Shown here piece by piece: positions 30,190 to 33,943 of a DNA stretch of 52,165 nt (its first letter is position 1; the number at the start of each line of letters is the position of its first letter). The notes beneath the pieces are model-generated. The model saw nothing but the letters and a program-made list of their open reading frames with translations, was not told where the DNA came from and ran no database searches. Made by a program: the position numbers and the translations under genes. The DNA comes from Anaerolineae bacterium (GTDB taxonomy: Bacteria; Chloroflexota; Anaerolineae; 4572-78; J111): assembly GCA_016931895.1 (NCBI GenBank), contig JAFGDY010000306.1, positions 1 through 52,165 of the forward strand, read 5' to 3'.

Positions 30190-30218
30190 CACCACAAAAT
30201 AGGGGGTTTTATACAGGT

Positions 30219-30358: not shown

Positions 30359-31516
30359 TTAAGAAGCCCGGCGCTGCTGCATGCGCTTGCGCAGAAAAGC
30401 CGGCACTTCCAGGTTATCAGGGTCGTAAACCGGCTCCTGACGGGCAGAATCGGTCCGGCCAAAGGACTCTTTAATTTTGTCTTGCGGGAAAGCAATGGTT
30501 TTTGACTCTCCTTCCCGCCGTTTACCGGCCACGTAGGGCCGCCGCTGGGCCACGGCGTCAAAGCCGGTGGCAATCAAGGTGATGCGCAATTCATCGGTCA
30601 GGTTATCGTCAATCACCGCCCCAAAAATGATATTGGCATCGGGGTGGGCTTTACGTTTGATGATTTCAGCGGCTTCATTTACTTCAAAAAGGCTCAAGTC
30701 GGGGCCGCCGGTCACGTTAAAGAGAATGCCCTGGGCCCCGTCAATGGTCACATCCAACAGCGAGGAAGACACCGCGCTTTCGGCGGCCTCTACCCCCCGG
30801 TTTTCGCCGGCGGCCACCCCCACCGACATCAGCGACGTGCCGCCGCCGTTCATGATCGAGCGAACATCGGCAAAATCCAAGTTAATCAAACCGGGCACGG
30901 TAATCAATTCGGAGATGCCCTGGATCCCTTGGCGCAGCACGTCATCGGCGGTGCGGAAAGCCTGGGTCATGCTGGCTTTTTTATCCACAATTTCCAGCAA
31001 GCGATCGTTGGGGATAACAATGAGCGTATCAACTTTTTCTTTGAGCCGTTCTATGCCCTCCACCGCCACATTTTGGCGGCGCGTGCCTTCAAAGGTGAAG
31101 GGCTTGGTCACCACGCCCACGGTCAGCGCGCCACTGTCTCTGGCCAACTCGGCAATAATCGGCGCGGCCCCGGTGCCGGTGCCGCCGCCCATTCCGCAGG
31201 TCACAAAAACCATGTCCGTCCCGCGCAGAATCTCTTCCAACTCTTCCGATGATTCTTCGGCGGCTTTGCCCCCCACTTCAGGGTTGCCGCCCGCGCCCAG
31301 GCCGCGGGTCAATTTGTCGCCGATACGGATACGTTGGGGCGCGTCGCTCATTAATAAAGCCTGGGCATCGGTATTGACGGCAATAAATTCAACACCGCGC
31401 AATCCTTCGGCAATCATCCGGTTAACGGCATTACTACCGCCGCCGCCAACGCCAATCACCTTTATCTGGGCAAAATTCTCTGGGGTCATCATATAATTTT
31501 TCCCGTTGTTAGCCAT
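30359..31516 (-). CDS. ftsZ: cell division protein FtsZ
   Basis: FtsZ is the tubulin-like GTPase that forms the division ring. The 385-aa protein has the N-terminal GTP-binding part [17 protein letters not shown], the tubulin signature [18 protein letters not shown], the T7 loop with [15 protein letters not shown] and the C-terminal conserved peptide [15 protein letters not shown] that binds FtsA and other partners. AAGGAG lies about 8 bases before the ATG. It follows ftsA by 34 bases and is the last gene of the cluster, terminated at 30219-30256. Confidence 0.98.
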
Positions 31517-31550: not shown

Positions 31551-32774
31551 TCAGCCAGGTAAAAATGGTTTTAGCCAGCCCGGCACTTTCAACTGGCCGG
31601 TAGAGGGCTGCTGCGCAGGCGAGGGCAGATCGTGCCGGACGCCCCATTCAAGCAGCCCTACGCTGGTGGCAAAAGCCGGGCTTTGTAAGGTATCAACCAG
31701 GCCACGCAAGTTTTGCGGTTCGCCAATACGGGCCGGCAAGTTCATAATCTCCCGAGTCAAATCCCGCAGGCCCGGCAATTCGGCGGTACCGCCACACAAT
31801 ACCACACCCGCCGGTAGTAAACCATCATAGCCGCTTCGTTTGATTTCCTTTAAAACCATCTCCAGTATTTCTTCGGCGCGGGCTTCAATGATTTCGGCCA
31901 AAAATTGGCGGGAGATTTGGGTTTGACCGTCCCCGCCAAACACGCTTACCTTGACAGTTTCATCGGGCATCATGGTGTCGGGCAGGCAATGGCCGTATTT
32001 GATCTTGATCTCCTCGGCCAGATTGAACGGCGTGCGCAAACCCACGGCCACATCATTGGTAATTTGTTCGCCGCCGGTGGGTAACACCACCGTATGCCAG
32101 ATACTGCCTTCAATAAAAATGGCAATGTCGGTGGTGCCGCCGCCAATATCAACCAAGGCCACGCCCATCTCGCGCTCAATATCGGTGAGCGCTGTTTCGC
32201 CGGAAGCTAACGGCTCAAGGACCAAGGCGTCAATGTAGATACCGGCATTCTGCGCGCATTTGACCAGGTTACGGATGGAGGCCGTGGAGCCGGTGACAAT
32301 ATGGGCCTCAACTTCTAGCCGATACGCCTGCATGCCAACCGGGTCGCGCACGCCGCTGTCGCCGTCTACCGTAAAATCGCGGGGGATGATGTGCAGCACC
32401 TCGCGGTTGTGCGGCAGATCAATGGCCCGGGCCGCTTCCAAAGCCCGTTCCACGTCTACGGGACGGATGCCTCGCTCGCCCCGGCTGATGGCTACCACCC
32501 CCCGGCTGTTCATAGCGCTAACGTGCGCCCCGGCCAAACCAACGTAGGCGCTGGCAATTTCGTAACCGGAGGTCCGTTCAGCCCGATGAATAGAATCGGT
32601 AATGGCCGCCGTGACCTCACCCACATTCACTACCACGCCCTTGCGGATGCCTTTGGCCGGAACCGTACCCACCCCCACTATCCGCAGCACATTCTCCGGG
32701 GGAGGGCCAACTTCGGCGACCAGGGTACAGATTTTGGTAGTGCCTATATCCAGGGCGACAACGGTCCGCTCCAC
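31551..32774 (-). CDS. ftsA: cell division protein FtsA
   Basis: FtsA is an actin-like ATPase that tethers FtsZ to the membrane. The 407-aa protein shows the phosphate 1 motif ALDIGTTKICTLVAE at the N-terminus, the SHS2-type 1C insertion (residues about 85-165), the phosphate 2 motif ALVDIGGGTTDIAIF, the adenosine site PAGVVLCGGTAELPG, and a C-terminal LKVPGWLKPFLPG amphipathic membrane-targeting helix. It starts at a GTG (MERTVVALD) preceded by GAGGAG. The upstream 263 bases hold a separate promoter with two NrdR-like boxes, so ftsA-ftsZ can be transcribed apart from the rest of the dcw cluster. Confidence 0.97.
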   Translation of the reverse strand: MERTVVALDIGTTKICTLVAEVGPPPENVLRIVGVGTVPAKGIRKGVVVNVGEVTAAITDSIHRAERTSGYEIASAYVGLAGAHVSAMNSRGVVAISRGERGIRPVDVERALEAARAIDLPHNREVLHIIPRDFTVDGDSGVRDPVGMQAYRLEVEAHIVTGSTASIRNLVKCAQNAGIYIDALVLEPLASGETALTDIEREMGVALVDIGGGTTDIAIFIEGSIWHTVVLPTGGEQITNDVAVGLRTPFNLAEEIKIKYGHCLPDTMMPDETVKVSVFGGDGQTQISRQFLAEIIEARAEEILEMVLKEIKRSGYDGLLPAGVVLCGGTAELPGLRDLTREIMNLPARIGEPQNLRGLVDTLQSPAFATSVGLLEWGVRHDLPSPAQQPSTGQLKVPGWLKPFLPG

Positions 32775-32849: not shown

Positions 32850-32903
32850 AGTTTACCACAATATATAGTATTTTGCAAGGGGTTAAACCACAACATATAG
32901 TGT
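32850..32903 (-). promoter_or_regulatory. ftsA promoter with two NrdR-like boxes
   Basis: On the minus strand, -35 TTGCAA (32873-32878) and -10 TAAACT (32850-32855) are 17 bases apart. The spacer is filled by ATACTATATATTGTGG (32856-32871). A second box, ACACTATATGTTGTGG (32888-32903), lies upstream with a 16-base linker, so the centres are 32 bp apart. Both match the NrdR box pattern aCaCwATATwTwGTGt, and tandem boxes about 31-32 bp apart are the family norm. No nrd gene is adjacent. Confidence 0.75.
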
Positions 32904-33037
32904 TTTTCCTTAAAATTTTGGCGCATCACAGCGCATTACGGCCCATTGCCGGGTATATGCCGGTAAACAAGAGAAACCTTCTTGTTTGTATGGCATCTTT
33001 GGCAGGTCATTATTTGCCGTACAGCCTAAATAATATC

Positions 33038-33943
33038 CTACCGCGGCGCTATCGGCCCGGTTTGCGCCGAACCAACAGCCGCTCGCGACCCTGAAACTGA
33101 TCGCTGTACCGGCTGGGCAATCTGAATAATAGATTGCGGTTTATAAAAAGGCCGGAGCGGGTCGCGCAAATCAATAAAAACCGGCGTAATATTTCGATCT
33201 TTCAAATCGGCCAGCAACGCCGTGAGCACTATTAATTTGGCCTTAATCTCACTGCCGTCGCCCAGGTATACCGGCCATCCTTCAGGCGTAGCCACCGTTA
33301 AACCCTGCAAACGAGAATAACGGATCACCGATACTTCCGGGGCCAACATCCGCAAGGTCTGCGCTCCTTCCACAATGGCGGCGTCAATTTGGTAGCCCGG
33401 CTGCAAGGGCTGTTGGTCGTCGTCAATAATCCGCAGCATGCCGGTGATGTCACCCCTGGGAGGCACAATCATGCCTTCGTGGTCCACCCACCAGACGGTT
33501 TCGCCGGTTTGCCACAACAGTTCGGGGCGCCGCTCGACCACGTTGATCACTATTTTAGCCGGCAACGCAACGGACACAGCAGCCGCCTTGATATTAGGCA
33601 GTCGCGTAATTCGCTCAACGATTTCGGTTGGATTGAGCCAAAAAATACTCTGGCTGTCTATACCGCTAACGGCATAAATCTCGTACGCCGACACGGCCAC
33701 ATTTCCCTGGATATCGGCCCCGTAAACAAAAAAACGCGGCTGGGTAAATAAGAAGTATCCGCTCCAGCCCAACACAATCAGAGCAACCAGGCCGGTCAAT
33801 TTTGTGCCCCGCGCCTGCCAAAATCTTACCACGGGGGTCAAGGTCAGGCGAGGTTGAACGGCAGTGGCTTCGTAATCAATCGTCTTCACTCCCAGTCGCA
33901 TTTCAGAACGGCGCCGTCGTCGGCGTTTTTGATGGCTATACAT
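33038..33943 (-). CDS. ftsQ: cell division protein FtsQ/DivIB
   Basis: FtsQ is a bitopic division protein linking the early and late divisome. The 301-aa protein has a very basic cytoplasmic N-terminus (HQKRRRRRRSEMRLG), one transmembrane helix (about residues 50-70) and an extracytoplasmic POTRA domain starting near 72 (RFFVYGADIQGNVAVSAYEI). A beta-domain follows, with the family segments RLPNIKAAAVSVALPAKIVI and VVERRPELLWQ. The start codon is ATG with no clear Shine-Dalgarno, 9 bases after the ddl stop codon, so it is probably translationally coupled. The following gap to ftsA contains the NrdR-like promoter. Confidence 0.9.
   Translation of the reverse strand: MYSHQKRRRRRRSEMRLGVKTIDYEATAVQPRLTLTPVVRFWQARGTKLTGLVALIVLGWSGYFLFTQPRFFVYGADIQGNVAVSAYEIYAVSGIDSQSIFWLNPTEIVERITRLPNIKAAAVSVALPAKIVINVVERRPELLWQTGETVWWVDHEGMIVPPRGDITGMLRIIDDDQQPLQPGYQIDAAIVEGAQTLRMLAPEVSVIRYSRLQGLTVATPEGWPVYLGDGSEIKAKLIVLTALLADLKDRNITPVFIDLRDPLRPFYKPQSIIQIAQPVQRSVSGSRAAVGSAQTGPIAPR

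Follow-up and report, generated by a model that had tools for sequence, protein, structure and literature searches.

An Anaerolineae bacterium carries, within the predicted promoter of its ftsA-ftsZ unit, two 16-bp NrdR-type boxes in tandem, one of which fills the spacer between the -35 and -10 elements. The pair lies in what we call the window, the whole stretch of 52,165 nucleotides of DNA analysed here (contig JAFGDY010000306.1). We read it as a genuine tandem NrdR operator set into a sigma-70-type promoter, through which dATP-loaded NrdR would repress ftsA and ftsZ together with nrdR-nrdJ, and assign to this joint reading a probability of roughly 84%. The assignment of the boxes to NrdR is well supported at the level of sequence; binding of the protein, dependence on dATP and the sign of control at ftsA, repression, are what we infer from it. 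NrdR has been described as a repressor specific to ribonucleotide reductase (RNR), and its paired operator normally shuts off the production of DNA building blocks when dATP is plentiful. The operator type and the regulator are known, whereas the ftsA-ftsZ target is new: a search of the open-licence literature yielded no paper that places NrdR boxes before either gene.

Anatomy of the ftsA operator

The distal box, the linker, the proximal box and TAAACT follow one another in this order on the minus strand (Table 1). The initial annotation had placed here two 16-bp minus-strand sites with a 16-bp linker and had one of them fill the 17-bp spacer between TTGCAA and TAAACT; both descriptions proved exact in their coordinates and in every sequence detail, the spacer consisting of a single A and the 16-bp proximal box. 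The pair is contained in the 263-bp gap (33037-32775) that separates the ORF in the ftsQ position from the ftsA start. The same gap holds, upstream of the distal box, a small AT-rich inverted repeat, AAACAAGA...TCTTGTTT (around 32960-32990), without a T-run.

The published NrdR consensus is acaCwAtATaTwGtg (PMC4009431), and NrdR needs two boxes, with linkers of 14-17 bp or 24-27 bp (PMC4009431, PMC12051234), those of 14-17 bp binding NrdR in vitro (PMC12051234). Each ftsA box scores 20/24 against this consensus, and the pair reaches 40 of a maximum of 48 in a tandem scan that applied the generic published consensus to 600-bp upstream regions. The 16-bp linker falls inside the 14-17 bp range, which sets both boxes on the same helix face, and the boxes overlap the predicted promoter of the gene that they would control. 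The likeness to the NrdR box pattern and to the tandem spacing of known operators, suggested from the outset, is thus borne out. The genes downstream are ftsA and ftsZ rather than those of an RNR operon and, accordingly, represent a new target class, although the anatomy of the operator is fully NrdR-like.

Table 1. Features of the ftsA-ftsZ operator region in the window and related features in other sequences of the order
Feature	Position	Strand	Basis
Distal NrdR box ACACTATATGTTGTGG	32888..32903	-	Sequence, consensus scan, conservation across three families
16-bp linker tttaaccccttgcaaa, holds the -35 element, ends TTGCAAA	32872..32887	-	Sequence
-35 element TTGCAA	32873..32878	-	Position kept in 17/18 genomes
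Proximal NrdR box ATACTATATATTGTGG, fills the -35/-10 spacer	32856..32871	-	Sequence, consensus scan, conservation
-10 element TAAACT	32850..32855	-	Sequence, conservation
ftsA, first gene downstream of the operator; start GTG at 32774; GGAG-type ribosome-binding site	31551..32774	-	Pfam FtsA 4.7e-48
ftsZ, second gene of the unit	30359..31516	-	Pfam Tubulin/FtsZ and FtsZ_C
ORF in the ftsQ position, upstream neighbour	33038..33943	-	Position and reading of the translation
nrdR	C300:12514-12948		Pfam zinc ribbon and ATP-cone
NrdR with zinc-ribbon insertion	G000, G001, G003-G007, G009, G010 (L001 = window genome)		
Pair in the dnaA-adjacent gap	L279:3292-3340 (G000:C283:14791), L286, L309, L363		
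f1 sites near or before genes for a sortase, a LysM/lamin-tail protein, glycogen phosphorylase (GlgP), a GH-like lipoprotein, a PPIase lipoprotein, an FHA-winged-helix regulator and a Na/H antiporter	L275, L034, L278, L033, L276, L274, L280, L282		

The regulator and its own operator

The presence of an nrdR gene had been named as a check, and a single one was found in the genome. The encoded protein carries an intact zinc ribbon and ATP-cone, and its homology to NrdR proteins of solved structure spans the full length. Directly behind it sits the only RNR large-chain gene detected in the genome, and the nrdR-RNR promoter carries the tandem boxes GTACAATATATTGTAG and CCACTATATATTGTGG, separated by a 14-bp linker. 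A different motif at the nrd promoters would have spoken against the assignment; the motif there is the same tandem one. By box sequence, pairs of a CTACTATATATAGTAG type can be distinguished from those of a CCACTATATATTGTGG type. In the same consensus scan, tandem boxes were found upstream of nrdR in many genomes of the class. In G018, where nrdR stands apart from RNR, a tandem pair nevertheless lies upstream of the nitroreductase-RNR stretch. Nine NrdR proteins of family f1 have in common two extra zinc-ribbon residues, inserted directly behind the first CxxC and ahead of VIDT (Table 1), and this insertion coincides with an expanded set of tandem sites (8-31 matches per genome).

Conservation of the pair upstream of ftsA

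FtsA was found in 55 of the 61 genomes examined, and a readable ftsA upstream region was available for 21 members of the order, window genome included, from families f1, f2 and f3. Both boxes, whose conservation in relatives had been proposed as a further check, precede ftsA in 18 of these 21 members and in all three families sampled (FtsA at least 63% identical), two of the pairs being weak (G012, score 21; G014, score 25). The proximal box lies between the -35 and -10 positions in 18/18 genomes, with a recognisable -35 element in 17. The linker measures 15 or 16 bp throughout: 16 bp in most genomes and 15 bp in two, in which the 17-bp promoter spacer is still kept. The -35 element reads TTGTCA in most f2 and f3 relatives, and the -10 element takes the forms TACACT, TAGACT and TATTAT among relatives. 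Comparison of f1 with f2/f3 gives identities of 0.72 and 0.79 for the distal and proximal boxes and of 0.69 and 0.74 for the -35 and -10 elements, respectively, against 0.26-0.33, close to random, in the sequence around the boxes. Outside the order, a candidate ftsA pair was detected in only 1 of the 31 testable upstream regions (G031, score 23). The nearest named genomes are those of Anaerolineales bacterium H5_CFX5 and H5_CFX7 (FtsA, 85%).

Other tandem sites and the identity of their reader

Orthologous tandem pairs precede gyrB (G000, G001, G004, G006, f2 G018 and f3 G013) and dnaE (G001 and f3 G013), as well as xpt-guaA (G000, G003, G004, G009 and G010, with a looser match in f2 G018), the deoxynucleoside kinase gene dNK (G000, G005, G009 and G010) and gyrA (G001). 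The genes behind the gyrB, dnaE, xpt-guaA and dNK sites make a coherent set devoted to DNA synthesis. Four f1 genomes (G000, G001, G006 and G010) have a conserved pair in a dnaA-adjacent gap rich in exact DnaA boxes (TTATCCACA); only its content marks this gap as a putative oriC, and the four regions were chosen because the pair had already been found there. Given this location, NrdR could act at the replication origin.

The f2 and f3 genomes contain only few 15-bp-linker tandem sites in all, nrdR or RNR promoters among them. In f1, where gene assignment covers part of the tandem sites, pairs also occur at genes with no evident role in DNA or dNTP metabolism (Table 1). Two of these pairs, L280:3104 before the Na/H antiporter gene and L282:2446 before a gene for an uncharacterised membrane protein, have nearly identical linkers, and such similarity (the C7 and C83 pairs) suggests that duplication has spread some of the sites. 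Within 25 kb of G006 (C1:267919-292316), a tandem CTAGATGTTGTAGGATGCTTGCC... element recurs in several near-identical copies; it is probably a repeat that belongs to repeated genes or lies close to them.

The f1 genomes that bear the boxes have 8 to 31 matches to the 15-bp-linker tandem, compared with 0-4 for the control; G005, in which ftsA was not found, is noisier (27 versus 11). By contrast, G002, G008 and G011, likewise of f1, have no ftsA boxes, yet keep TTGCnA-17-TAAACT. Genome-wide, there is no excess of 15-bp-linker tandem sites in G002 (1 versus 4 in the control) or G008 (5 versus 6) and no clear excess in G011 (11 versus 5), where four copies of one repeated element make up most of the 11. 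From these counts, the three genomes seem to have lost the operator set in its entirety, and the coordinated disappearance of the ftsA boxes and of pairs across the genome points to one trans-acting reader. Since the three assemblies are 55-80% complete, the failure to find nrdR in G002 and G011 does not show that they lack the gene.

The reader might be a different regulator with an NrdR-like tandem motif, which would serve ftsA and many f1 sites and leave to NrdR only the nrdR-nrdJ promoter. Several f1 sites indeed precede genes unrelated to nucleotides, many end in a CTACTATATNTAGTAG-type sequence instead of ACA/CCA, and G008 lost its sites but kept nrdR. However, the core, the palindromy and the tandem 14-16 bp spacing are the same as in the boxes of the nrdR promoter; the ftsA boxes are also present in f2 and f3, with their few 15-bp-linker sites; and the loss of sites was coordinated, the NrdR of G008 being itself divergent from the other f1 proteins in the zinc ribbon. 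We consider this alternative improbable and know of no other family with such a two-palindrome operator. Some of the same observations nonetheless weigh against NrdR as the reader of the ftsA boxes: the many f1 sites at genes with no obvious dNTP link, which would be compatible with a broader regulator or a second one with a similar motif, the zinc-ribbon insertion in f1 NrdR and the retention of nrdR in G008, to which the difference in linker length between the nrdR (14 bp) and ftsA (16 bp) operators should be added.

Gene order and origin of the operator

In 21 genomes of the class, from many orders, nrdR is located directly behind ftsA-ftsZ, usually with RNR next (L130-L165) and with the identity of ftsZ confirmed, and hence NrdR and the division genes have probably long been linked. 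In most genomes with the ftsA-ftsZ-nrdR order, boxes precede nrdR but not ftsA, which implies that autoregulation had no need of an ftsA site, whereas the cluster and both operators are retained in the order members G017 and G019. In f1 and f2, nrdR is away from ftsAZ, and both ftsA boxes were kept while their flanks were randomised. In the simplest history, an old ftsA-ftsZ-nrdR-RNR neighbourhood would have been joined by an ftsA operator in the order's ancestor, and nrdR would later have left the cluster in f1 and f2, where the ftsA operator persisted.

The gene order also lends itself to another interpretation, namely, that the ftsA boxes are a relic of ancestral ftsA-ftsZ-nrdR(-nrdJ) autoregulation, irrelevant for ftsAZ wherever nrdR moved away, as in the window genome. 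The 21 clustered genomes, which include the box-bearing G017 and G019, are in line with such an ancestry, but the persistence of the f1 and f2 boxes amid randomised flanks with nrdR elsewhere, and the restriction of the boxes to nrdR in most of the clustered genomes, make it very unlikely. We reject it as a full explanation and accept it as a possible origin, in that it accounts for the origin of the boxes but not for their retention.

Significance of the pair

Sites were counted genome-wide by pattern searches with reversed-pattern controls. Single boxes with up to 3 mismatches yield 102 matches versus 115 for the control and, being no commoner than the latter, prove nothing on their own; a third match in the window, at 30192 (a single box with 3 mismatches), was treated as chance. 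By contrast, the CWANATNTWGT pair at the ftsA spacing, with up to 2 mismatches, has 12 matches on both strands of the genome versus 0 for the control, and its 15-bp-linker version has 17 versus 1. Among 715 shuffled upstream sequences, none reaches a score of 22 in the tandem scan (maximum 19). The significant feature is the pair, not the single box. Chance AT-rich palindromes that happen to overlap an ordinary promoter, an idea with which the frequency of single boxes would agree, can be dismissed with near certainty in view of the shuffling result, the near-zero controls for pairs and the retention of the pair in 18 genomes amid randomised flanks.

Proposed mechanism and implications

With dATP (and ATP) plentiful, the only NrdR of the cell would bind the two boxes from the same side of the helix, cover the -35/-10 spacer and keep RNA polymerase off the ftsA promoter, such that ftsAZ would be repressed together with nrdR-nrdJ. 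As replication draws down dATP, NrdR would be released, and RNR and the division genes would be made together. Repression is the expected outcome because the boxes overlap the -35 and -10 elements, as proposed for the boxes at the RNA-polymerase site of Listeria nrdDG.

If this is correct, one protein would directly link the dNTP level to the Z-ring genes. A more far-reaching proposal, to which we give even odds, is that NrdR in this order is a nucleotide-sensing coordinator of the chromosome cycle, with RNR, dNK, xpt-guaA, gyrase, dnaE and ftsA-ftsZ under one operator type read through dATP and with the f1 pair in the putative oriC potentially acting at initiation. The sites at gyrB, dnaE, dNK and the putative oriC suggest that replication and division share a regulon, which bears a loose resemblance to the G1/S programme of eukaryotes, and the ftsA operator offers a specific and easily tested molecular candidate for the coupling of replication to division in bacteria.

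Comparison with known systems

The WhiA regulon of Streptomyces likewise joins division genes and RNR control in one network (PMC3781837). There, however, it is WhiA, with its GACAC motif, that binds both sets of genes and represses nrdR (PMC3781837), no binding of NrdR to fts promoters being reported. Precedents for NrdR targets other than RNR are weak. In Pseudomonas aeruginosa, NrdR similarly has a site at a non-RNR gene of DNA metabolism, topA, but this is a single box at which NrdR showed activator-like behaviour (PMC4409342), a mechanism questioned on the grounds that NrdR needs two boxes (PMC12051234), whereas ftsA has a full, conserved tandem pair.

The closest counterparts are the NrdR operators of Streptomyces coelicolor nrdRJ and nrdAB, E. 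coli nrdHIEF, nrdDG and nrdAB, and Listeria nrdDG, which, like the one at ftsA, comprise two 16-bp palindromes of the acaCwAtATaTwGtg type with a 14-17 bp linker and overlap the RNA-polymerase site (PMC12051234, PMC12176259, PMC4009431). The NrdR-RNR systems also share with the genome studied here the zinc-ribbon/ATP-cone regulator and the autoregulation of nrdR-nrdJ (PMC12051234, PMC12176259, PMC4009431). What sets the present case apart is the range of putative targets: rather than being confined to RNR genes, they include ftsA-ftsZ and, at other loci of the genome, gyrB, dNK and xpt-guaA.
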